NCBI GenBank assembly: GCA_015234115.1
Contig: JADFWP010000009.1
Span: 1 to 64,000, forward strand
DNA: 64,000 nt
Reading direction: 5' to 3'
Source of the DNA: Magnetococcales bacterium
GTDB taxonomy: Bacteria > Pseudomonadota > Magnetococcia > Magnetococcales > Magnetaquicoccaceae
The notes under the pieces were generated by a model that was not told where the DNA came from, did no database searches, and was given only the letters and a program-made list of their open reading frames with translations. How positions within the stretch are numbered: position 1 is the first letter of the stretch; each line of letters opens with the position of its first letter. Shown here piece after piece: positions 23,936-37,694 of the stretch. The position numbers and the translations under genes are program-made.

Positions 23936-24733
23936 CTACTCCAGCAACTGCTCCCGGAACAGCTCCAGCCACCCCGGAGCATGGCCCGGCTCTCCGGCGA
24001 CAGGGGGTTTGGCGGCAGGTGATCCTTTCTTCCCCTCCTCCATCGGAATCGCGCAGCGACCCATGGGGAGATCCGGGGGGGTGGCGAGTCTGGATTCATC
24101 CCCGACCCGACGGAATTCCAGACGCATCTCCACCCGGCGGCTCTCTTCGGGAGAAGATTTGATGGCCGTCACCGACGCCCCGTCGATGATCAACAACTCC
24201 TGCAAACGACGCAATTTTTCCGGAGGCAGATCCACGGAGAGCAGGGCGCACAACACCGACTGGGCACGCTTGAGACTCAAATCCACGTTGTAAAGATAGC
24301 TGCCGGCTGCATCGGTGTAGCCTTCGATATGAACCCGCTCCATCCAGCGTCCCCCCTCCTGCCCGGCACGCACCTCCAGCAATACCGGCACAAAAGCGCG
24401 CAGAATCTCGACCGCCTCGGGGGTGAGTTGATAGCTGTTGAAGGCAAAACGCGCCTTGTCGCCAAAATGGATCGAATGATTCTCCTGATTGACCCGCAGA
24501 TCCAATCCCGCATCCTCGGCCATCAGGTCAAGCTGGGTCAGAATCATCCGGATGTCACCGGCACGCTGTTTCTTCTCCACCATGGGACGCGAGGCAATCG
24601 CCACCATGGAGATGCTCATGACCACCAGAAACAGCATCACCAGTGCGGTCATCAGATCCGCATAGCTGATCCAGAAGGGATTTCCCGGTCCTTCATCCGT
24701 GCCGGAACGCCGCGCCCGCATCCAGTTGACCAT
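23936..24733 (-). CDS. MotB/ZorB-like stator protein with OmpA-type peptidoglycan-binding domain
   Basis: The protein has 265 residues. It has a short cytoplasmic N terminus, a single transmembrane helix (about 22-46) with the proton- or ion-carrying Asp26 in NPFWISYADLMTAL, and a periplasmic OmpA-like domain (about 60-210, VHIEGYTDAAGSYLYN). This is the architecture of MotB and of ZorB in Zorya anti-phage systems: the Asp works in the ion channel formed with the MotA-like partner and the OmpA domain clamps peptidoglycan. A proline- and lysine-rich tail ends it. The start at 24733 lies two bases after the stop of the CYTH-CHAD gene; a TTG at 24751 is possible. The partner is surely the giant MotA/ZorA-like protein two genes upstream. 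No flagellar genes are nearby. Confidence 0.85.
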   Translation of the reverse strand: MVNWMRARRSGTDEGPGNPFWISYADLMTALVMLFLVVMSISMVAIASRPMVEKKQRAGDIRMILTQLDLMAEDAGLDLRVNQENHSIHFGDKARFAFNSYQLTPEAVEILRAFVPVLLEVRAGQEGGRWMERVHIEGYTDAAGSYLYNVDLSLKRAQSVLCALLSVDLPPEKLRRLQELLIIDGASVTAIKSSPEESRRVEMRLEFRRVGDESRLATPPDLPMGRCAIPMEEGKKGSPAAKPPVAGEPGHAPGWLELFREQLLE

Positions 24734-24735
24734 TT

Positions 24736-26265
24736 TCAATCCCGGAGCCAAGAGAGGGAAGACGCGCCGGAAAACGGCTCCCAGGTCAGACGGAAATCAC
24801 TCCGGGCCGCCTCCAGTCTGGCGCCCTGCCACCCGCGAAACAGATGATCCACCGCTGTCGGCCCATCACCGGATCCCGCACGCTGCCACAGCCGCTGTTC
24901 CGCCTCCAATTCCACCACGCGCCGCGCGCTCCGCACCAGATCGGTCACCGCCGAACGCTGCACCCCGGATTTGCGCTCCGGGATCGCTCCGGCAAAAAGA
25001 GCCAGGATCTCATCCAGGGCCTCGGCACGGGCCAACACTTCGAGCGGAGCGGCGCAATCGCCCTCCACCAGCACTCTGGACCCGCGACGGATCAACTCCC
25101 GCGCCATCCCTTCGACCGATCCATGCAGCCGCTCCCGCACTCCGGCATCGCTCTCCATGGTGGCCGCCTTCAACCCCTCCTCGCTGCCCAGCCAGATGGC
25201 AAACCCCATGAACAGACGGGTGAAACGAAACGAGTCCACCGCCCGCACCGCCCGCTCCAAAGCCAGATCCCACGCCTGTTGCGCCCGCACCCGCCGCGCT
25301 TCCAACGGCTTCGCATCCTCCGGAAAACAGTCGCACATCCACGGGACGGTCGCCTGCACCAGACCCGCTCCGAACGCGACCTCCGCCAACTCCCCGGACA
25401 ACCAGTGCAACTCGCTCTCCATGTCGCGCCGCAGCGGCTCGGGCAGCAACTCCCCGAACGACTGGATCAAACGATGCAATCCGGCCACCGCCTGGATGAG
25501 ATTCCCCGCAGCCTGGATCCGGATCGCCCCAACGCCATGAACCAAAGGGGCCAACTGATCCCGGATCCAGCCGACCCGCGCCGCGCCGGCCCGCGCCAAA
25601 GCCCCGATCACCCGCTCCCCGGTCACGCCACCCCCCTCATGCCAGGCAACCGGAACCAACAGCGTGGAATCGCGACGCACCAGGGCACGCGCCACCGGTC
25701 CCAAAGGTTCCAGCAGCGCCGAAAAATGGCGTCCCACCGCCAGCGCGGTTTGCAGAAAACGGACCGGCGCCCCTCCGGACCCCTCCAGCACCACATCGTG
25801 AAAGGGTTGCTCCTCCCCGCCCTCCGGTCGCGTCACCCGCCCGCGCAGCTCGCGCAACACGATCCGGGCACCATCCGGATACTCCAGACGCCACCGCTCC
25901 TCGCGCTGCTCGATGGTCAGAAGCGGCTCCAATGATTTGATTTTGATCCCTTCGGATAAAAATTCCGGCAACTGTCGCTTGAGATCCCCCCAATCGGGCC
26001 GCTCCCCGTTGCCGCACTCCCACTCCCGGCCCTCGCCACCGGCCTGCACTCCGGACAGACCGGCCTGCCATCTGGATCCGGGCCGACAGGCGGTCAGAAT
26101 CATCCCGCCCCGTGCCAGTTTCAAATCCGGGGTATCCCAACAGAACGCACTGCGCTCCGTGACACGGGACTTGCCCGTCACCGCCGCCCGCACCGCCGGA
26201 TGATCGGCCAACGGCGCCACTCCGGTCGCTCCACCCACCCGCATCCGCATGCTGTCGAAGGTCAT
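24736..26265 (-). CDS. Degenerate CYTH-CHAD domain protein
   Basis: This 509-residue protein is soluble, with no signal peptide. Residues about 36-200 resemble a CYTH (triphosphate tunnel) domain: FCWDTPDLKLARGGMILTACR matches the YDTPD-L-x-x-x-G-x-x-L-R strand pair. The N-terminal ExExK metal motif needed for catalysis is absent, so hydrolysis of triphosphates is doubtful. Residues about 215-500 resemble a CHAD domain, an alpha-helical His/Arg-rich fold that binds polyphosphate (VHGVGAIRIQAAGNLIQAV; HWLSGELAEV). Here several expected His and Arg are missing. It lies between the giant MotA/ZorA-like gene (19 bp) and the MotB-like gene (2 bp), so it is probably part of that complex, possibly docking it to polyphosphate granules. 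The assignment is by pattern only. Confidence 0.6.
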   Translation of the reverse strand: MTFDSMRMRVGGATGVAPLADHPAVRAAVTGKSRVTERSAFCWDTPDLKLARGGMILTACRPGSRWQAGLSGVQAGGEGREWECGNGERPDWGDLKRQLPEFLSEGIKIKSLEPLLTIEQREERWRLEYPDGARIVLRELRGRVTRPEGGEEQPFHDVVLEGSGGAPVRFLQTALAVGRHFSALLEPLGPVARALVRRDSTLLVPVAWHEGGGVTGERVIGALARAGAARVGWIRDQLAPLVHGVGAIRIQAAGNLIQAVAGLHRLIQSFGELLPEPLRRDMESELHWLSGELAEVAFGAGLVQATVPWMCDCFPEDAKPLEARRVRAQQAWDLALERAVRAVDSFRFTRLFMGFAIWLGSEEGLKAATMESDAGVRERLHGSVEGMARELIRRGSRVLVEGDCAAPLEVLARAEALDEILALFAGAIPERKSGVQRSAVTDLVRSARRVVELEAEQRLWQRAGSGDGPTAVDHLFRGWQGARLEAARSDFRLTWEPFSGASSLSWLRD

Positions 26266-26284
26266 GATCCCAATCCCTCCCAGG

Positions 26285-29200
26285 CTACTTGACCCGCAAA
26301 CGACGCCGCAGGGAATCCAACCGCTCGCCAAGCATTTCGATGAACACACTCTGTTCGCGTCCCAGACTGGTCACCACCCCTTCGAGCAGTTGGCCCAGCT
26401 CGGTCAGATGCTCTTCCACATGGCGCGACGACTCTTCGTTCTTGTGATACAGCCCATCGCGCAACTGCTCCAGATCCTGTTCCAGCCCCCGGCCCAACTG
26501 ATCGATCACCCCGATGACCCCTTGATGCCGTTCGTCGAAATGGCTTTGCACCTCCATGAGACGCTGGGCCAGCATTCTGTTCTCCTCCATGGTCGATCTG
26601 GAGGCCTCGTTGACCCAGGCCTGCAACGAACTTTCCATGGCTTTCTGCTCGGCCACCAGCCGCTTGCGCATCTCGGCCAACTCCTGGGCCACCCCGCCGA
26701 AGGCGGTCTCCATGCGCTCGGCAATCACGTTCACCACTTCGTTGGCACTCTCCTCCCGCGAGCGGACCAGCTCCTCGCCGGAGAGCCGCAGATGGGTCGC
26801 CAATTGTTTGGCCGTCTCGTCCAACTCCCCGAGCACCGCCATCTTGACCCCTTCGGCCTGCTCGGCGGTCTGACTGAGCAACCGCTCCATCAATGCCGAT
26901 TCCCGGTCCCCGTCGAGTTGCGAACGCTCGTCGGCCAGCGTGGACAAGGCGGTCTTGAACTCCTCGGAAACCCCCTTCATCAAGGTTTGCAGCTTCTCCT
27001 CCCCGCCAACCCCGCTCGACAGCAGCCATTCCCGGGTCTGGAGCGCCACATGTCCGGCGGATTCGCGAATCTGGCGCCGCATCCGTTCCATCTCCCGGCC
27101 CATTTCGCCAAACAGCATGGCCATCCCCTCTTCGCCCGAACTGGCGGCACGCTCCACTTTGAGCAGCACCTCCCGCAAGGTGGCGTCCATGGTCCCGCTC
27201 GCCTGGGAAATTCGCTCGGCCAACCCGGCCATCCCCTCTTGCCATCCCCCCTGCATGGCCTCCAGACGACGCATCAACCCCTCTTGCAAACGCATCAGGT
27301 CGGCCCCGTCGGCCCGCACCGCCTCGATGGCCACCACCCCCGCATCGACCTTGGCGAGCAACTCCCCATGCCCGACCCGCAACCGTTCGTTCAAACGGGC
27401 ATGACGCCCCTCGGACGCGGCAGAGACCTCGGCACCCGCCGCGCGAATCCACCCGGCAAGCTCGGCGCCCGAAGGCAGACGGGTCGTCAACTCGCCCAGA
27501 CCCTGACGCAAACGGCTGGCCGCCTCCAGAGCCTGTTCACGAAACACCCGGCTCTCCTCGGCCTGAAGATCGACCTTCCCGGCCAGCCCGCGCAACGCAA
27601 GAACCCCCTCCTCGGCCCGCTGCGACCACTCGCTCTGGCGGCTTGCTCCCGCAGCCAACTCAGCCGCCTGTTGCCCCAGATGACGCTCCATGCCGCTGGC
27701 CAACTCAGACAGACGGGCACTCACCCCGGTCAGCAACTCACGACGGGTCGCCGCATCCCGCGCCAACAACGTGATCTGATGATCCAGCCGATTCCCCAAA
27801 CCTTCCAGGCCATGCGCCACGGCATCCACGCCCTCGCGCCGCGCGACATTCTCCTCTTGCAGCACGGAGAGTTGACGATCCAGTTTCTCCCCGACCCCCT
27901 CCAGACCATGCGCCACCACCGCGATCCCCTCGCGCTGCGCGACACGCTCCTCTTGCAGCACGGAGAGTTGACGATCCAGTTTCTCCCCGACCCCCTCCAG
28001 GCCATGCGCCATCCGTGCGAGGCCATCCGTTCGTGAACCGGTTTCCTCTTTGAGCAGACTCAATTGCTGATCCAGCCGGACACCAAGCGCATCCAGACCG
28101 TTCGCCACCACCGCGATCCCCTCGCGCTGCGCGACGATCTCCTCTTGCAGCACGGAGAGTTGACGATCCAGTTTCTCCCCGACCCCCTCCAGGCCATGCG
28201 CCATCCGTGCGAGGCCCTCCGTTCGTGAACCGGTTTCCTCTTTAAGCAGACTCAATTGCTGATCCAGCCGGGCACCAAGCGCATCCAGACCATGCGCCAC
28301 CACGGTGATTCCTTCGCGCCGTGAACCGGTTTCCTCTTGAAGCAGATTGAACTGCCGGTCCAGCCGGTCACCCAGACCATCCAGGCCGCTCACCACGGCT
28401 CCGAACCCGGTGCGCTGTGAACCGGTTTCTTCTTCCAGCCGGGACAGCTGTTGATGCAGCCCCTCCCCCAACCGTTCCAGACCATGCACCACCACAGCCA
28501 ATCCTTCGCGCCGCGCCGTGGCTTCCTCCCGAAGCAGCGCAAGCTGCTGATCCAACCCCGCCCCAACCCGCTCCAGACCATTCACCACCACAGCCACCCC
28601 TTCCTGACGTGCGGTGCTCTCCTCTTTCAACACAGCAAGCTGCCGCTCCAACCGGACGCCAACCCCCTCCAACCCCTGCGATACGACCGCCACCCCTTCC
28701 CGACGCAGAACGGAATCCTCCTGCAACAAGGCAAGCTGCCGCTCCAACCGGGCACCAAGGCCATCCAGACCATTGGCCAGCACTTCGCCACGAACACGAG
28801 ACTCTTCACGCCGTTGACGCGACTCCTCTTCCATCAGCGTCAACAGCCGCAGCACATGACCATCCAGCCCCGCGCCAAGCTCGGCCAGACGGGCGGTGAT
28901 CGTGCCCAACTCCTCGCGCTGACCGATCCCTTCGCCCTCCATGCGCGCCAGTTGCCGTTCCAGCAGCCCGGCCAGCCGACCACTCATCCCGCCGAACATC
29001 TCCTGCCAGGCGGTCGCGCGCTCCCCGGCCCGGATCGACTCCCGCTCCAGCACCTCTTCGAGCGCTGCCAGTCGGGCTTCCAGACGTTCGCGGGAGAGAC
29101 GGGCCTGTTCAAGCTCGGCGACCATGCCTGCCAACTGCCGGGCCAACAGACTCTCCACCCCTTGGCCCCAGCCATTCAGATCGGCCACCACGCCGCGCAT

Positions 29201-30244
29201 CTCGTCGCGCTGTCTGGCATCCCGCTGGGACCAGGTGTCGAAAGCCCGCTCGATGGTGGCCATCACCCCGCTCAAACTCAGCGAGATGGCCAGCGTGGAC
29301 TCTTCCCGCCCGCTCTGCTCCTGCCGGAGCAGCGGCTCCAGCCGGGCCACGGAATCGACGATCCGCTGAACCGGCTCTTCCCACAGCGCCTTGGTCGAGG
29401 CAAGACGCACCTCCGGATCCGCCCCACCCCCGCCCAAACCAAAATGACGGTTCAACTCGCCCTGAAACGCCAATACCTGAGCATAACGCCAATGCAGCAA
29501 CAGCTTTTCCACCACCGTGACCAGCATGGCGGTCACAATGGCAAAAAAGGAGGCGGAAAAGGCGGTCGAAACCCCCATGAACAGCCCCTGAAGCTCCCGC
29601 GTCACCTGATCCGGCCCGACCGAAGGATCAAACTGGGTCAACCCCATCAAAATACCGGCAAAGGTGCTGACAATGCCGGAACCGGTGAGAATCCCCGGCA
29701 GATGGCGAAAGAATTCCACCCGCATCGGAACATCCACCAATGCCTGCTGGCTGAAAACCATCTCGGCGGGAATGGCGGCGATCAAACCGGAATGCGCCAC
29801 GCCGCTGACCGGATCGATCCGGGTCTCCACCTGCACGCTGCTGACGAACTCACGCCACAACCGGGTCAGACGCAGATCGTAAAACCACCGCCACTGCTCG
29901 GGTTGCGTGGCGCGAGGGCGATCCAGACGCCGGATCCGTTGACGCAGCGAACCCGCCACCAACCGCAGACGCATCCCGTCCAGCAGGGCCTGCACCACAT
30001 ATCCGCCCACGAACAGCACCATGAAACCCGCCACCACCCCAGCCAGCGTGGCGATGATGGCGTTTTCCCCCTGACGTTGCAGCGGAATGCTCAGGAATGG
30101 CGGCAGCGCGGCCCAGTTGGACACCGCCACCACATCCAGCTCGCGCGCCACCTGGATGCCGATCCACACAGCGCTCCCGGCGAGCAGTATGGTCCAACAC
30201 CACGAGACCAGGGTTGCCAAAAAAACCGCCAAACCATCGCGCAT
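26285..30244 (-). CDS. Giant MotA/TolQ/ZorA-like membrane protein with coiled-coil tail
   Basis: The protein has 1,319 residues. The first 250 hold four membrane helices (about 5-30, 62-90, 183-205, 222-248). The last two form the MotA/ExbB core: LPGILTGSGIVSTFAGILMGL, then GVSTAFSASFFAIVTAMLV. Nearly all the remaining 1,060 residues are predicted coiled coil, including eleven tandem 32-residue repeats (about residues 493-844). This is the ZorA plan, where a MotA-like pentamer carries a long cytoplasmic tail, but the tail is larger than usual and no ZorC, ZorD or ZorE gene is present. I chose 30244 because GGGGA lies six bases upstream; a TTG at 30274 and ATG at 30250 are alternatives. It follows the MamK-like gene by about 40 bp and must be cotranscribed, which suggests that the tail may act on an actin filament. 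Confidence 0.82.
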   Translation of the reverse strand: MRDGLAVFLATLVSWCWTILLAGSAVWIGIQVARELDVVAVSNWAALPPFLSIPLQRQGENAIIATLAGVVAGFMVLFVGGYVVQALLDGMRLRLVAGSLRQRIRRLDRPRATQPEQWRWFYDLRLTRLWREFVSSVQVETRIDPVSGVAHSGLIAAIPAEMVFSQQALVDVPMRVEFFRHLPGILTGSGIVSTFAGILMGLTQFDPSVGPDQVTRELQGLFMGVSTAFSASFFAIVTAMLVTVVEKLLLHWRYAQVLAFQGELNRHFGLGGGGADPEVRLASTKALWEEPVQRIVDSVARLEPLLRQEQSGREESTLAISLSLSGVMATIERAFDTWSQRDARQRDEMRGVVADLNGWGQGVESLLARQLAGMVAELEQARLSRERLEARLAALEEVLERESIRAGERATAWQEMFGGMSGRLAGLLERQLARMEGEGIGQREELGTITARLAELGAGLDGHVLRLLTLMEEESRQRREESRVRGEVLANGLDGLGARLERQLALLQEDSVLRREGVAVVSQGLEGVGVRLERQLAVLKEESTARQEGVAVVVNGLERVGAGLDQQLALLREEATARREGLAVVVHGLERLGEGLHQQLSRLEEETGSQRTGFGAVVSGLDGLGDRLDRQFNLLQEETGSRREGITVVAHGLDALGARLDQQLSLLKEETGSRTEGLARMAHGLEGVGEKLDRQLSVLQEEIVAQREGIAVVANGLDALGVRLDQQLSLLKEETGSRTDGLARMAHGLEGVGEKLDRQLSVLQEERVAQREGIAVVAHGLEGVGEKLDRQLSVLQEENVARREGVDAVAHGLEGLGNRLDHQITLLARDAATRRELLTGVSARLSELASGMERHLGQQAAELAAGASRQSEWSQRAEEGVLALRGLAGKVDLQAEESRVFREQALEAASRLRQGLGELTTRLPSGAELAGWIRAAGAEVSAASEGRHARLNERLRVGHGELLAKVDAGVVAIEAVRADGADLMRLQEGLMRRLEAMQGGWQEGMAGLAERISQASGTMDATLREVLLKVERAASSGEEGMAMLFGEMGREMERMRRQIRESAGHVALQTREWLLSSGVGGEEKLQTLMKGVSEEFKTALSTLADERSQLDGDRESALMERLLSQTAEQAEGVKMAVLGELDETAKQLATHLRLSGEELVRSREESANEVVNVIAERMETAFGGVAQELAEMRKRLVAEQKAMESSLQAWVNEASRSTMEENRMLAQRLMEVQSHFDERHQGVIGVIDQLGRGLEQDLEQLRDGLYHKNEESSRHVEEHLTELGQLLEGVVTSLGREQSVFIEMLGERLDSLRRRLRVK
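27713..28768 (-). repeat. Eleven tandem 96-bp (32-residue) coding repeats
   Basis: Each unit reads like L-(D/E)-x-(L/V)-G-x-x-L-x-x-Q-L-x-x-L-x-E-E, then a basic and hydrophobic half ending V-V-x-x-G. Units 6-10 are almost identical at the DNA level (about 27800-28290), showing recent expansion or gene conversion. The array is in frame, so copy number could vary without breaking the protein. Confidence 0.8.
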
Positions 30245-30281
30245 CGCCATTCCCCAAAGCTTGAACCGATCCAAACCCGAC

Positions 30282-31319
30282 CTAGCCGCCCACCACCTCG
30301 CCGATCTGATCCCAATACTCGGGAGGCAGTTCGGTGGCCAGCTTCAACGCGCCCTCGGCACCGGCAAAATCGGCGTCCGAGGCCACGGAAACCTTGACTT
30401 CGCCATACTCCTGCAACTGCTGTTCGATCATCGGCGCCAGCCCGCGAATGCGCGAACCGCCCCCGGCCAGAAGCAGATTGGCCAAAACCGCTGCCTGGCA
30501 TTCGGGATCGAACAGCAAAATCATGCGTTTGATGCTCTCGACGATATCGCCCACAATGGTTTCGCAGGTGATGCGCAACGCCTCGGTCACATCCACCTCC
30601 GCCGGTCGGCCATGAACGCGCAACGGCACGATCACCGGTTCCCCCGCCATTCCCACAAAGCCGTGACGCTCCTTGATCGCCTGCGCCAGATAACGATCCA
30701 TCTGCACCCCCGGATGGGCATCGCGGATCGCGGCTTCGAGCAGACCATCGATATAGTGCCCGCCCTTGAAGATGCTCAACTGATTTTCCGGGCCAGGAAT
30801 GGTGCCGCGCATGGCGCACAGATCGATCGTGCCGGCACCGACATCGATGATCAGCGCATTGTTGAGCCGGTTCTGACCATAGGCCACCATGAACGGCTCG
30901 GACACCACCATGGCCACATCCATCAGTCCTGCGAAAATCTTGTGCAACTGTCCTTTGTTGGAGAGTGCCGCACGGGCCGGAACCCCGATGATTCCGCAGA
31001 TCCGGTCCCCGGCCATGGGCGCGGCCAGCTCGACCACATGTTGCACCAGCTCCCGGGCCGCCTCCAGATCCTTTTCGCTCGTCTCCTTGAGCACCCCATC
31101 CTGCAACGGATGGTAAAGATCGAGCAGGGAACGATGCTCGATCGCTTCGGCGCCGATCACCCTGGTCCGGTTGAGAATTTTCACCCCGATGATATCCTTG
31201 GGATATCCCACCACCGAATGAACCAATCCCCTGAAGTGGCGATTGCTCATCACCGCCGTGCGCGCGGTTCCCAAATCGATGCCCAGCAGCAAGACTCTTT
31301 CGGTCTTATTGGTCGTCAT
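30282..31319 (-). CDS. mamK: MamK-like bacterial actin (magnetosome-filament family)
   Basis: The protein has 345 residues, the size of MamK (347 in Magnetospirillum AMB-1), and matches it from end to end by eye. Diagnostic segments are LGIDLGTARTAVM (phosphate 1, 12-24), SVVGYPKDIIG (35-45), PLQDGVL (71-77), VVSEPFMVAYG (138-148), IIDVGAGTIDLCA (157-169), AGGGSRIRGL (285-294) and the tail ELPPEYW. The ATPase residues Glu141 and Asp159 are kept, so it should form dynamic filaments. MamK aligns and segregates magnetosome chains. Here none of the usual mam neighbours is present; the next genes encode a MotA-like coiled-coil giant, CYTH-CHAD and MotB-like proteins. It may be the main MamK outside a compact island or a paralogue with a different cargo. 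The start at 31319 follows GGAGGAAGTC. Confidence 0.85.
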   Translation of the reverse strand: MTTNKTERVLLLGIDLGTARTAVMSNRHFRGLVHSVVGYPKDIIGVKILNRTRVIGAEAIEHRSLLDLYHPLQDGVLKETSEKDLEAARELVQHVVELAAPMAGDRICGIIGVPARAALSNKGQLHKIFAGLMDVAMVVSEPFMVAYGQNRLNNALIIDVGAGTIDLCAMRGTIPGPENQLSIFKGGHYIDGLLEAAIRDAHPGVQMDRYLAQAIKERHGFVGMAGEPVIVPLRVHGRPAEVDVTEALRITCETIVGDIVESIKRMILLFDPECQAAVLANLLLAGGGSRIRGLAPMIEQQLQEYGEVKVSVASDADFAGAEGALKLATELPPEYWDQIGEVVGG

Positions 31320-31575: not shown

Positions 31576-33621
31576 TCAACTTTCAACAATCATAATATTA
31601 CCCGCTGACAACGATGGGCGACCAGTCAACGTGGCCATGGTCACCGCCACCTCGCTGCCACTTCCGTCCGGATCATATTTCAACACGCCCGTACTGGTAT
31701 TATAAACAAAACGTTGGTCTCTTGTCGTCCTCTGGCCAGTCGCATTCGCAAGAAAACGGCTTGAGTCCAATTTTCCCCGAGACAGATTGCCAAAATTCCT
31801 GCTCACAAAAACGAAATTGTCATGAACGGCATCAAAATCACTAACATCATCACCACCTTCGACAGGTCTTAAATACTTGAATTGATCTGAACCATCCCCT
31901 CCTGACAATCTGTCATCGCCCTTTCCACCTTGCAGAATATCATTACCTTCATCACCTTCTATTTCATTGCTCTTATCATTGCCATGCAAAAAGTTATTCA
32001 AATTGTTTCCTTTGCTATTCACAGAATCCATACCAGTAAGGATCAAGTTCTCCACATGAGAAGGCAAAACGAAAGAGACCGAACTTTCCACCCGATCCAC
32101 GCCCTGGTTGAAATTTTCCACGATACGATCATTCCTGTTGCTGACAATATAGAAATCATCTCCATTTCCGCCAAACATACTGTCCTGCCCCGCCTTGCCA
32201 TCCAGTCTGTCATTACCATCATATCCATACAACGCATTATCACCTCGATTCCCGGTTAAAGAATTATCCAAGGAATTGCCCATACCGCTGATGGCGCTGC
32301 GACCTGTCAACTCCAGATTCTCGATATTGCGCCACAAGGTCCAAGTGACCGGACTTTTCACCAGATCCGTGCCACCATTCACCCCCTCAATCATGGCACT
32401 CTCAGAATCATCAGAGTCAACATAATATGTATCGTCCCCGTTGCCACCAACCATTCGATCCGAGCCGGGACCGCCCCTCAAAATATCATCGTCATCACCG
32501 CCATATAATTGATCATTCCCGCCCATCCCAGAAATTTCATCATTGCCATCCAGACCACGCAGCACGTTTTTTCCAGCATTACCAATAATATTATTGTCAA
32601 GATCATTGCCAGTCACATTCATGTCAGAACTGATCGGTGGAAGAGTGAGATCATGATCCGTGGGTGACATAATCGTACTGTAGGACGGGTCCACGATCGT
32701 GGTCGTAACCGACAGTGGCCTGCCAGGCAGTGCCCCATAAGGATCCGAAATGCTGACCGTGAAGGTCTCATCCGATTCAACCACGGCATCATTCAATACC
32801 GGCACCGTAAACGTATTGCTCCAACTCCCGGCAGCAATGGTGAGCTCGCCACTTGTGCTCGTGTAATCATTGCCTGTGGTCGTCGTCGGATTGGCAGTGG
32901 CGTAATTGATCCGCACGTCCGTGCTGGAGAGTTCGGAGAGTCGAACCGTGTAGGTGGCCGTCTCTCCTTCGTGGACCGTGGCCGGACCGGAAAGATTGAT
33001 GGTCACATTCCCTTCGATCACTACCTTCAGATCATCCACCGAGTGAAAATTCCACTCGCCTCCGGTTGCCGCCGTGAAACCCAAATAAAACGAATCAGGC
33101 AACTCCAAGCTGCCAGACAAAACCTTCTCCCGATCAAAGAAGACGGAAAAATATCTGTATTTATACTCGAACGAGACATTGTGCCATTGATAATCCTCAA
33201 GATCGTTTTGAATATGATGACTCAAATAATTCGAAGCCTCGTTTCGAATCAGTGCGATATGATTCCCTTCAGGATCTGCGGGATTATGGTAAGTATCAAA
33301 CTCAACCGCATACCCCGCAAGACCGGAAAAACCCAACGCTGAACCAAGCCCGCCAAGCCCTGGTTGCGACACAAAAACCAGAGCCATGCCATCGGCTCCC
33401 TGCACCTCTGCGCCACTGCTGCTGTATTCACTGCCAGTGCGCAACTTGAATTCAACCACAAAGTTGCCTGATTGAATTGGATTGACTGGTGCATTCAAGA
33501 AAGCACTGCCGGTTGAAAAAGCAGAATTGTAGGTCAATTCCAGCGCACCGTTCTCCACCCTGGCATGCCCAAATGTGGTCAGGTCATCCTGACCGTCAAA
33601 TGAGTATTGGTACAATAGCAT
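31576..33621 (-). CDS. Secreted RTX protein with legume-lectin-like and Calx-beta domains
   Basis: The protein has 681 residues. About 1-215 form an L-type (legume) lectin-like beta sandwich (GADGMALVFVSQ, YAVEFDTYHNPADPEGNHIALI), a sugar-binding fold. A Calx-beta domain follows (about 220-325, GETATYTVRLSE). From about 345 there are two clusters of RTX nonapeptides (GGNDQLYGGDDDDILRGG; GGKGDDRLSGGDGSDQF) that fold on binding Ca2+ outside the cell. No N-terminal signal is present; RTX blocks and the C-terminal segment indicate type I secretion, though no ABC exporter is in the window. It starts at 33621 because GGAGGC lies eight bases before it; the ATG at 33636 contains that ribosome site. 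Likely an adhesin. Confidence 0.85.
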   Translation of the reverse strand: MLLYQYSFDGQDDLTTFGHARVENGALELTYNSAFSTGSAFLNAPVNPIQSGNFVVEFKLRTGSEYSSSGAEVQGADGMALVFVSQPGLGGLGSALGFSGLAGYAVEFDTYHNPADPEGNHIALIRNEASNYLSHHIQNDLEDYQWHNVSFEYKYRYFSVFFDREKVLSGSLELPDSFYLGFTAATGGEWNFHSVDDLKVVIEGNVTINLSGPATVHEGETATYTVRLSELSSTDVRINYATANPTTTTGNDYTSTSGELTIAAGSWSNTFTVPVLNDAVVESDETFTVSISDPYGALPGRPLSVTTTIVDPSYSTIMSPTDHDLTLPPISSDMNVTGNDLDNNIIGNAGKNVLRGLDGNDEISGMGGNDQLYGGDDDDILRGGPGSDRMVGGNGDDTYYVDSDDSESAMIEGVNGGTDLVKSPVTWTLWRNIENLELTGRSAISGMGNSLDNSLTGNRGDNALYGYDGNDRLDGKAGQDSMFGGNGDDFYIVSNRNDRIVENFNQGVDRVESSVSFVLPSHVENLILTGMDSVNSKGNNLNNFLHGNDKSNEIEGDEGNDILQGGKGDDRLSGGDGSDQFKYLRPVEGGDDVSDFDAVHDNFVFVSRNFGNLSRGKLDSSRFLANATGQRTTRDQRFVYNTSTGVLKYDPDGSGSEVAVTMATLTGRPSLSAGNIMIVES

Positions 33622-33998
33622 ATCCAACGCCTCCATGATTGCAGTGCCGGTCGTTCAAAACACTTCAAAAGGATGGATGGAGCACACAGACAACCCCACA
33701 CAAAATACCATATCGTCCAATTTTAACTCAACGATTAGCGTTTTTTTTACCGGGAAGATTCGTACACAAAGCGCAGGGAGTTTTTAGACCGGACCAGGAG
33801 GGTGATTGGCATACGGCAAGCATCAGAAAGCGTAAAAAATGTGTTAGGATCAGGTTTCAGCAATAAATAAATTAACTAAATAATTTATTTATAATAGAAT
33901 ATTTTAAAGGTCGCAACCAATCGAGAAAATCAAAGTCCTGCCAATCGGCATAAAAACACCCTGCCCCCTGCCACCCGCATCCTGGCGACGGCATCCGT
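33622..33998. other. AT-rich intergenic region with a 9-bp inverted repeat
   Basis: No gene is supported here. The stretch 33820-33910 is very AT-rich and contains AATAAATTA (33866-33874) and its exact complement TAATTTATT (33881-33889), which could be an operator or a silencer-binding region for the RTX gene downstream on the minus strand. A C/G-rich stretch lies next to the truA stop. Confidence 0.4.
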
Positions 33999-34781
33999 TC
34001 AGGACAACGGCAGATTCCCTGCCGGATCGGCATAATGGACCCGCATCAGATAAAGCCCCTGCGCCGGCGCCATGGGACCGGCCTGTTTGCGATCCAGGCT
34101 GTGGAACACCTCGTCGAACCGCTCCGGGGACCACCTGCCCCGACCCGTCACCACCAGACTGCCCACAATATTGCGCACCATGTGGTACAAAAAAGCATTG
34201 GCGCGGATGACAAAATGAATTTCATCCCCCACAACACGCAGTTCAGCCAGGCTCACCTCCCGTACCGGGGTGAGGGATTGACAATTGGCCGCACGAAAAG
34301 CGGAAAAATCGTGTTTGCCCACCAGCCGTTGCGCCGCCTGATTCATCGCCTCCAGATCCAACCGTCCCGGATGATGCCAGACCCGTGCCCGCTCCAGGGC
34401 AGGAGCGGCGCGACGCGCGAAAATCCGATAAAGATACTCCCGCCACGCGGCCCTGCGGGCATTGAACCCCGCCGACACCTCGGCTGCATCCAGCACCGTG
34501 ACATCAGGCGGGGTCAGAACGTTCAAAGCCCGAACAAAAACCTCCGGCGCGCGCGCGCAGGTGGTGTCGAAATGGGCCACCTGACCCTTGGCATGCACCC
34601 CGGTATCGGTGCGACCCGCGCCCACCAGCAACACGGGATGTCCGCACAACCGCTCCAGGGCCTGCTCGACCACCCCCTGCACCGTCACCACCCCGGGAGC
34701 CTGACGCTGCCAACCGGAAAAACGCGAGCCGTCATACTCCAGGGTCAGGCGGTAACGGACCGCTCCGGATTCGGCCTGCAT
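33999..34781 (-). CDS. truA: tRNA pseudouridine(38-40) synthase
   Basis: The 260-residue protein has the usual TruA length. The catalytic Asp lies in GAGRTDTGVHAKGQVAHF (about residue 51), and later motifs NARRAAWREYLYRI, HDFSAFRA, FHMV-like FLYHMVRNIVG and GRG are all present. It makes pseudouridine in the anticodon stem-loop of tRNAs. The start at 34781 overlaps the rnfH stop by one base (TGATG). Confidence 0.96.
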   Translation of the reverse strand: MQAESGAVRYRLTLEYDGSRFSGWQRQAPGVVTVQGVVEQALERLCGHPVLLVGAGRTDTGVHAKGQVAHFDTTCARAPEVFVRALNVLTPPDVTVLDAAEVSAGFNARRAAWREYLYRIFARRAAPALERARVWHHPGRLDLEAMNQAAQRLVGKHDFSAFRAANCQSLTPVREVSLAELRVVGDEIHFVIRANAFLYHMVRNIVGSLVVTGRGRWSPERFDEVFHSLDRKQAGPMAPAQGLYLMRVHYADPAGNLPLS

Positions 34782-35077: not shown

Positions 35078-35260
35078 GGTCTCTCTCCTCATCGATCAAT
35101 GACACCTCACCCCCTGAGACCGGCGACTCCCGGACCCAACCAAATTAGCATACGCGCATTATCGACTTTCTTTCAACCGACAAAGCCGATATATTCTTGC
35201 GATCAGGATCGCCTGGACCACCCGATCTTTATTAACCGCGCAAGGAGCGCAGGATCGCCC

Positions 35261-36031
35261 ATGAAGATTTTTTCCTTGTATAACATCAAAGGCGGTGTCG
35301 GAAAAACCACCACAGCCGTCAATCTCGCCTATCTTTCCGCCTCCGAAGGGGCGAGAACCCTGATCTGGGATCTCGATCCGCAAGGAAGCACGAGCTATTA
35401 TCTTTGCGTCAAACCCTCCATCAAGGGCGGCACCAAAGAACTGCTGGGCGGACGCCCGGACCCCCAAAGCGCCTTGCGCATGACCGGCTTTCCCAATCTC
35501 GATCTGCTGCCCGCCGATATCACCTATCGCCACATGGAAACCCAGATCGACCATCAGTCCAAGCCGCTGCTGGCCTTGCAAAGAATATTGAAACCTCTGC
35601 AAAAACAGTTCGATCACGTCTTTGTGGACTGTCCTCCGGGCATCGGCATGGTGGCGGAAAATGTCTTTCACATGTCCGATGTGCTGCTCATTCCGCTCAT
35701 CCCCACCCCGCTTTCGCTCCGGGCCTACAACAGCCTGGTTCAGTTCCTGGTCAAACGGCGCGCCAACCGGCTCCAGGTGCTGCCGTTTTTCAATATGATC
35801 AACGATCACAAACCGATCCACCGGGTGGTCACCCGCAACGTCTTCGGAAAACATCCGATCTTTCTGCAATCGATCATCCCCGAATCCAACATCATCGAGG
35901 CCATGGGTGTCAAACGCTCTCCGGTCTTCTCCTACGCCCGCGAAAGCCAGGAGGCGACGGCCTATCGCAACCTTTGGAACGAAATCAAACAACGCGATGC
36001 GCGCCGCACCCGCACCCCGGCCCCGGTCTGA
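35261..36031 (+). CDS. ParA/Soj-family ATPase
   Basis: The protein has 256 residues. The deviant Walker A motif KGGVGKTTTAVNLA opens it (about 11-24); Walker A' LIWDLDPQG and Walker B VFVDCPPG follow. Such ATPases form dimers on DNA or membranes and position chromosomes, plasmids or protein clusters. There is no ParB gene beside it. The next gene encodes a TPR protein only 61 bp downstream, so it more likely positions a protein cargo than a replicon. The start at 35261 is backed by GGAGCGCAGGATCG. It is divergent from rnfH-truA. Confidence 0.9.
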   Translation: MKIFSLYNIKGGVGKTTTAVNLAYLSASEGARTLIWDLDPQGSTSYYLCVKPSIKGGTKELLGGRPDPQSALRMTGFPNLDLLPADITYRHMETQIDHQSKPLLALQRILKPLQKQFDHVFVDCPPGIGMVAENVFHMSDVLLIPLIPTPLSLRAYNSLVQFLVKRRANRLQVLPFFNMINDHKPIHRVVTRNVFGKHPIFLQSIIPESNIIEAMGVKRSPVFSYARESQEATAYRNLWNEIKQRDARRTRTPAPV

Positions 36032-36092
36032 CCCCTCCAGAGGAACCACCCCGGTATCCAAAATCCATGGCAGGCTATGAGGTGACTGATCC

Positions 36093-37694
36093 ATGAACAC
36101 CCAACTCCAATCCGCCCAAACCGCTCACACACCCCCGCACAAGGGGTTCCTGCACGGTCTGACCTCTTTCCTGACCCGTCGGAAAGAACCGGAAAACCAG
36201 GAAAACGATTGGAATCATTGGATGTTCTTGCGCATCCACAACTTCGAGGTGCATATCGCCGGACCAGGTGTGCCGGTCGATCCCCAGGCGCTGGAGACCT
36301 GGGAACCCCTGCTGGAAGATGTAACCACCCTGGAGTTCCGCCCCTGCCCAAAAGATGACGCTCCGGCGACACCCGATCACGAAATGATCCGCCTGGAACA
36401 GGGCATGACCCGGCTCATGGACAAACTGGCGCCGATCCTCGCTTCGGACCAGATCCGCTGGGTGCCGGGACTGGATCAACCCGAACCCTCGGACCTCAAC
36501 GAACTGCTGGCCAAGCGGTTCGTGGCCGAAAAGATCATCCGCGATCCGGACCTCACCGAACGGCTTTATCTTCAGGCGCTCACCCTGGAGCCGGAAAATG
36601 CCGACATCCTGGGGGCATACGCCCTGTTCCAGCACGAGGTGCGCCGCGACCCGAACGAAGCGGAAACCCTCTACCGGCGGGCCGTGCGGGCCAACCCGGA
36701 TCATGCGGTCAACCTGGACAACTATGCCGTCTTCTTGCAGGAGGTGCGCAAAGAGTACGACGAGGCGGAACGCCTCTACCGGCGCGCCCATATGCTGGAA
36801 CCGCACTTCGCCACCCATCTGGGCAATCTCGCCCTGTTTCTGCACGAGGTGCGCGGTGATGACGACCAGGCCGAAGAACTGTTCCGGAACGCCTTGAAAA
36901 CCGATGGCCAGGATGCGGCGATCCTGGGCAATTTTGCCCTGTTCCTGCACAATACCCGCCGCGACGACGACCAGGCGGAGCAACTCTATCGCCGCGCCCT
37001 GGAGGCCAACGGCCAGGATGCCAACACCCTGGGCAATTTTGCCTTGTTCCAAAAAAACGTGCGCCGCGATTACGATACGGCGGAACACCTCTTCCGCGAA
37101 GCCTTGCGCATCGACCCCAACCATTCGGCGCATCTGGGCAACTTCGCCCTGTTCATGAAAAACATCCGGCACGATTACGATCAGGCTGAAGCTTACTATC
37201 ATCGCGCCCTGGAGGCCGATCCCAACGATTCCAACCATTTGGGCAACCTGGCCTTTTTCATGAAGAACCTCCGGCGCGACCATGCCGCTGCCGAAGATCT
37301 CTATCGCCGCTCCTTGCAGGTGGAGCCGAACAATGCCATCCGGTTGGGCAACTTCGTGCAGTTGCTGCTCTGCCAGGGTCGGCCCGCCGAAGGATTGCCG
37401 CTGCTGACCAGGGCGATCACCCTGGTGGACGAGACCAATCCGGTGCTCTCGTTGGAATTGTGGTTCTATGTCCTGGCTCACGACCTCAAACAGTTCGCCC
37501 CGGCCCTGGGTCACATCCGCCGCCTGCTGCACAACGGCATCCGCTCGCCGGGCTGGGATCTGCAATGCAACTGCCAACGCGCCATGCAGGATCATCACCC
37601 CCATCCGGAACTGGTCACCGCCCTGGCCGCCGTGATCAACAGCGAGGCCCCATTGGAAAGTCTGGAACGGTTCCCGGAGTGGCAGAGGGAATGA
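36093..37694 (+). CDS. Tetratricopeptide-repeat protein linked to ParA
   Basis: The protein has 533 residues, soluble. Residues 1-140 form a unique N-terminal region with no recognised domain. About 145-440 contain eight or nine TPR-like repeats of 35 residues, unusually alike (GNFALFLHN-RRD-D-QAE-LYRRALEA). The similarity suggests recent duplication. The C-terminal 95 residues are helical. TPR arrays bind partner proteins; the gene is cotranscribed with ParA, so it may be its cargo adaptor. No signal peptide. Confidence 0.85.
   Translation: MNTQLQSAQTAHTPPHKGFLHGLTSFLTRRKEPENQENDWNHWMFLRIHNFEVHIAGPGVPVDPQALETWEPLLEDVTTLEFRPCPKDDAPATPDHEMIRLEQGMTRLMDKLAPILASDQIRWVPGLDQPEPSDLNELLAKRFVAEKIIRDPDLTERLYLQALTLEPENADILGAYALFQHEVRRDPNEAETLYRRAVRANPDHAVNLDNYAVFLQEVRKEYDEAERLYRRAHMLEPHFATHLGNLALFLHEVRGDDDQAEELFRNALKTDGQDAAILGNFALFLHNTRRDDDQAEQLYRRALEANGQDANTLGNFALFQKNVRRDYDTAEHLFREALRIDPNHSAHLGNFALFMKNIRHDYDQAEAYYHRALEADPNDSNHLGNLAFFMKNLRRDHAAAEDLYRRSLQVEPNNAIRLGNFVQLLLCQGRPAEGLPLLTRAITLVDETNPVLSLELWFYVLAHDLKQFAPALGHIRRLLHNGIRSPGWDLQCNCQRAMQDHHPHPELVTALAAVINSEAPLESLERFPEWQRE

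Follow-up and report, generated by a model that had tools for sequence, protein, structure and literature searches.

A MamK-family actin shares a conserved operon with a ZorAB-type stator and a CYTH-CHAD-fold protein in one genus of Magnetococcales

The window analysed here is a stretch of 64,000 nucleotides from a Magnetococcales MAG (genome G000; 3.3 Mb in 161 contigs, about 77% complete). Four genes on its minus strand, encoding a MamK actin, a giant ZorA-like protein, a CYTH-CHAD protein and a ZorB-like protein, follow one another head to tail in that order (Table 1), with intergenic gaps of 37, 19 and 2 nt. A sequence-only reading of this DNA had proposed a head-to-tail operon with short gaps and had named the four families; the measured gaps agree with it, and all four family calls were borne out by NF040964, by PADLOC ZorA1 and ZorB1, and by the CYTH-CHAD fold. 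The start codon of the ZorA-like gene was picked from its ribosome-binding site together with alignment to relatives. Purifying selection acts on each of the four coding sequences (pairwise dN/dS about 0.09-0.6), and the gene order is conserved in further genomes of the window's genus. As read from the sequences, the anatomy of the operon, that is its parts, their order, their conservation across the genus, the selection on them and the MamK lineage, is solid. A promoter scan of the window returned nothing usable. Between truA and MamK lies a gene for a protein with RTX-repeat, legume-lectin and Calx-beta features (window 31576-33636), and upstream of truA are a ParA-like gene and then a TPR protein (window 35260-37694); a ParA-like gene is likewise found upstream in loci L072 and L073.

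Table 1. Coordinates of the operon genes, of sites within them and of the truA landmark in the window
Feature	Position	Strand	Details and basis
ZorB/MotB-like protein with OmpA domain	23936..24733	-	265 aa; PADLOC ZorB1, Pfam, 8qyd_F
Channel Asp codon (ZorB-like Asp26, motif YADLM)	24656..24658	-	alignment A3, nearly invariant
CYTH-CHAD-fold protein	24736..26265	-	509 aa; profile matches, AlphaFold, Foldseek, alignment A2
ZorA/MotA-like stator protein with giant cytoplasmic tail	26285..30244	-	1,319 aa; PADLOC ZorA1, TM prediction, solved ZorA chains
ZorA-like tail	26288..29404	-	about 1,030 residues, only 3 prolines, 32-residue repeat
MamK-family actin	30282..31319	-	345 aa; NCBIfam NF040964 match, MamK tree, nearest solved chains
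Nucleotide-site Glu codon of MamK (E143, 5jyg numbering)	30897..30899	-	Glu in the window
truA landmark	34002..34769	-	Pfam PseudoU_synth_1

The actin scores 496.6 bits over its whole length against NCBIfam NF040964, for which the cut-off is 400. Among solved structures the chains closest to it are 5jyg, 5ljv and 5ljw (E about 1e-113), labelled 'Actin-like ATPase' in the PDB, which we take to be MamK structures. In a tree of 79 MamK-family rows it groups with MamK and not with other actins, as had been expected from the sequence, while MreB-like loci in the same genomes reach just 50-70 bits or so to the MamK family. Membership of another actin family was considered and is ruled out by the NF040964 score and the MamK tree. 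Both the Glu and the Asp of the nucleotide site are kept in the window's MamK. The equivalent of E143 is Ala in the operon MamKs of three genomes (G028, G030 and G031; 3 of the 79 rows) and Glu in the other 76, the window included. Changes of E143 in Magnetospirillum, E143A among them, yield static filaments (PMC5059902), and the Ala in three operon MamKs would fit a scaffold role; this idea is not derivable from the window itself, because its own MamK retains the Glu.

The 1,319-residue protein matches PADLOC ZorA1 (9.8e-58), has four predicted transmembrane helices, and finds its nearest solved chains in ZorA of the anti-phage ZorAB system (8qyy, 8qyk, 8qyh and 8qyd). Its partner matches PADLOC ZorB1 (4.6e-65) and carries the Pfam OmpA and MotB_plug domains, with 8qyd_F as nearest solved chain (6.7e-63). 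Together the two present the hallmarks of a 5:2 stator, namely a MotA-like core with transmembrane helices and a MotB-like partner with the channel Asp and OmpA, and PADLOC places the ZorA and ZorB homologues together in the operon as in Zorya type I. The remaining protein gives profile matches to 6qv5 (3.4e-19) and to YgiF 5a60 (2.4e-16); its AlphaFold model (pLDDT 87.7) retrieves 5a60 in Foldseek at 8.5e-14, and a two-domain CYTH-CHAD fold is confirmed by the profile matches together with this model. Judged by eye, alignment A2 shows no recognisable ExExK, the catalytic motif of CYTH, at its first strand, where an invariant Arg is found.

The operon has relatives throughout the order. About 30 of 48 Magnetococcales genomes contain a ZorA-(CHAD)-(HDOD)-ZorB module, whole or in parts that can still be recognised; with distant kinds counted, 37 of the 48 have a ZorA-like match, and close module ZorAs occur in about 30. 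All four of ZorA, CHAD, HDOD and ZorB are present in ten of the loci examined (L080, L089, L092, L093, L095, L096, L099, L100, L101 and L102), and ZorA, CHAD and HDOD are seen together in L098. Family f6 has the order ZorA-HDOD-ZorB with CHAD absent. HDOD is absent from the window's genus, where MamK comes before ZorA; the four-gene set represents a late form of the order-wide ZorA-CHAD-HDOD-ZorB module. In eight of the nine module-bearing genomes of the genus, MamK is the gene immediately upstream of ZorA (the window, L072-L074, L076-L078 and, at a contig edge, L075 of G034); the sequence-only reading, which would have been overturned had the four genes never co-occurred elsewhere, stands up to this check. 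In one genome, G027, the contig ends inside ZorA, with CHAD and ZorB on another contig (L220). The exception is G036, which is nested inside the genus by its ZorA and yet has no MamK beside it. Among loci from other genera with at least 1.3 kb of upstream sequence none has MamK upstream of ZorA; the few others have little upstream sequence.

The MamK of the operon is not the one in the present magnetosome cluster. That the locus had a magnetosome connection was part of the sequence-only reading, and contig C106 of the genome does carry a magnetosome gene cluster, which includes a separate MamK. Trees place the operon MamKs among the family's other MamKs and separate them from the MamK of this present cluster. 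In the sister genome G036 a close relative of the operon MamK belongs to a full magnetosome cluster (L103) that adjoins truA, with truA upstream of the cluster. The truA gene likewise lies just upstream of MamK at L072-L074 and L078; in the window it is upstream of MamK with one gene between. The G036 cluster and the recurrence of truA beside MamK suggest that the operon MamK came from an older magnetosome cluster, and it may be that MamK was kept for reasons of its own after that cluster decayed. A single clade of all operon MamKs is neither shown by the tree nor rejected (AU p 0.226 and 0.116), and G036 is not a clean fit to a single origin of the MamK adjacency through collapse of the truA magnetosome cluster.

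Stator-like genes also lie near other MamKs. A ZorA/MotA-like gene is found within 20 kb of MamK at 38 of 83 MamK loci against 2.15 expected, a count drawn from loci that are not independent, inflated by shared ancestry and shared gene clusters and set against a simple uniform null. These 38 loci span three gene settings. Besides the operon, the magnetosome cluster on C106 has a set of ZorA-, ZorB- and ZorC-like genes, the ZorC-like one with an Hpt domain, and a third, more distant kind of stator occurs near other MamKs; both are linked to the module ZorA by hhalign, with probabilities of 99.1 and 97.0. The C106 set (L011:3071-8989) is divergent from the magnetosome cluster and comprises a 1,231-aa ZorA-like giant, a ZorB-like protein and an EH-signature protein with the Hpt domain. 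In G037, probably Magnetococcus marinus MC-1, the magnetosome cluster includes a gene for a protein of 1,705 aa that matches the distant stator profile and has a MotB-like gene as neighbour (L205:8054-14104). Another MamK copy has a DUF697 gene and a distant MotA-like gene nearby in L111, L120, L126, L113 and L130, accompanied by ParA in the last four of these and by a MotB-like gene too in L120, L126 and L113. Outside Magnetococcales, no ZorA-like gene was found near MamK in the stretches fetched around MamK loci of families f18 and f70.

The relationship to defence systems was approached through the genome's own Zorya. The sequence-only reading would have been overturned had the neighbours belonged to a standard Zorya whose C and D genes lay elsewhere; a standard Zorya is indeed present, but as a complete ZorABCD of its own on contig C79 (ZorA1, ZorB1, ZorC1 and ZorD1 by PADLOC; L227:1439-9293), and this separate set rules out the operon as a standard Zorya. 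In the operon ZorC and ZorD are absent, with MamK and CYTH-CHAD there instead. The ZorA tree places 30 module ZorAs on one side of a branch with support 87 (not starred), as a sister group to 15 Zorya-labelled rows, and the operon ZorA does not fall among the ZorAs of the defence loci examined. The label on these 15 rows has different foundations: in nine, ZorB is followed by genes of the size of ZorC and ZorD (L196, L198, L202, L203, L204, L165, L166, L168 and L171), with L165 confirmed by Pfam; L167 has a ZorC-sized gene only; and L195, L197, L199, L200 and L201, which are without the full Zorya set and some of whose contigs end in or near ZorA, are labelled by tree and similarity alone. The L201 gene, a ZorA-like gene of Accumulibacter (L201:9797-11317), has no ZorB, C or D match in the roughly 9 kb downstream and may be an orphan or part of a broken locus.

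Our leading reading, which we put forward tentatively and at somewhat less than an even chance, is that the operon encodes a ZorAB-type ion-driven stator that is not a defence system, that it gained MamK in this genus, and that the tail works on or against the MamK filament. The stator would have descended from the same stock as Zorya I without being part of it. ZorA and ZorB would assemble 5:2 into a membrane motor that the OmpA domain of ZorB ties to peptidoglycan; ion flow past Asp26 would rotate ZorA and its tail of about 1,000 residues in the cytoplasm; and the tail, acting on or against the filament, could shift, tension or anchor it together with a cargo of magnetosomes or storage granules. 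CYTH-CHAD, lacking a recognisable catalytic motif, could be a regulator or adaptor, perhaps sensing polyphosphate. We infer the 5:2 assembly, the rotation, the contact of tail and filament, the cargo and the role of CYTH-CHAD. An ion motor with a tail that acts on MamK is suggested by two precedents: Zorya requires its ZorA tail as well as ion flow and binding to peptidoglycan (PMC11890865), and in Myxococcus a stator-type motor relies on the actin MreB for its movement, which is a partial precedent (PMC9120999). Coupling is supported by the tight operon, the MamK-ZorA adjacency in eight of the nine genomes of the genus with the module, the purifying selection, the 38 of 83 loci and the change of Glu to Ala, and is weakened by the core module having no MamK neighbour in most genera and by G036. 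The wider proposal that ZorAB-type giant-tail motors of Magnetococcales move or anchor MamK filaments, in magnetosome clusters as well as in the operon, and so are bacterial equivalents of a motor that acts on actin, we consider unlikely.

The chief rival, to which we give rather low odds, is that MamK is co-transcribed yet mechanically independent, a remnant of the decayed native truA magnetosome cluster that still places magnetosomes and now stands upstream of an unrelated envelope motor. The MamK of G036 beside truA, the existence of the module without MamK elsewhere and the second MamK of the genus in its present magnetosome cluster are all in keeping with this; adjacency to ZorA kept in eight genomes, and stator-like genes near MamK in two further settings, argue against it. 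It is also conceivable, if improbable, that the stator module is regulated by CYTH-CHAD through polyphosphate or another phosphate ligand, and by HDOD in other genera, with MamK tuning or anchoring it in one genus only. In its favour, CHAD and HDOD recur beside ZorA and ZorB across families, and the CHAD fold is confirmed, but f6 is without CHAD, the window's genus is without HDOD, and the phosphate ligand is putative.

A phage-defence variant of Zorya, in which CYTH-CHAD and MamK replace ZorC and ZorD, seems very improbable to us. Although Zorya I is the closest match to ZorA and ZorB both by sequence and by solved structures, the operon is without ZorC or ZorD, the same genome has its separate complete Zorya I, and the module is present order-wide with its ZorAs in a single group, distinct from the Zorya loci that were examined. 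The Zorya-like defence that had been offered as an alternative in the sequence-only reading therefore gained no positive evidence, the module being without ZorC and ZorD and spread through the order.

Returning to the reading of an ion-driven stator acting on MamK, the operon suggests that these magnet-sensing bacteria may run an ion motor on an internal filament, perhaps placing cell contents. Should the coupling prove real, a rotary motor powered by ions would be driving or holding a bacterial actin. The finding also points to ZorAB-like motors beyond phage defence. The genome paper on 'Ca. Magnetaquicoccus inordinatus' UR-1 (PMC6783814) notes the absence of mamJ and mamY and of a known protein that joins MamK to magnetosomes; the stator-like genes near MamK in many Magnetococcales, probable MC-1 included, are concrete candidates for magnetosome placement in magnetotactic cocci. 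That the set had not been described before was part of the original suggestion and agrees with our literature search, conducted largely outside subscription journals, which found no report pairing MamK or magnetosomes with Zorya- or stator-type genes.

Each part of the operon can be set beside a known system. Zorya type I supplies the nearest relatives of the ZorA core and of ZorB and shares the channel Asp, the peptidoglycan-binding domain and a long ZorA tail, whereas the operon has no ZorC or ZorD, places CYTH-CHAD between A and B and MamK upstream, and has a longer tail. Like the MamKs of magnetosome clusters, the operon MamK is full length and above the curated cut-off, but it is located outside the magnetosome cluster of its genome, in a stator operon, and three of its relatives have lost the Glu. 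YgiF-type CYTH-CHAD triphosphatases have the same two-domain fold, from which the predicted operon protein differs in having no recognisable ExExK in alignment A2 and in its genomic setting. The Agl gliding motor of Myxococcus is comparable in being a stator-type motor whose movement depends on the bacterial actin MreB; its stator and actin belong to other families, and the passages of PMC9120999 consulted describe neither a giant tail nor a shared operon such as joins MamK to the ZorAB-type stator here.
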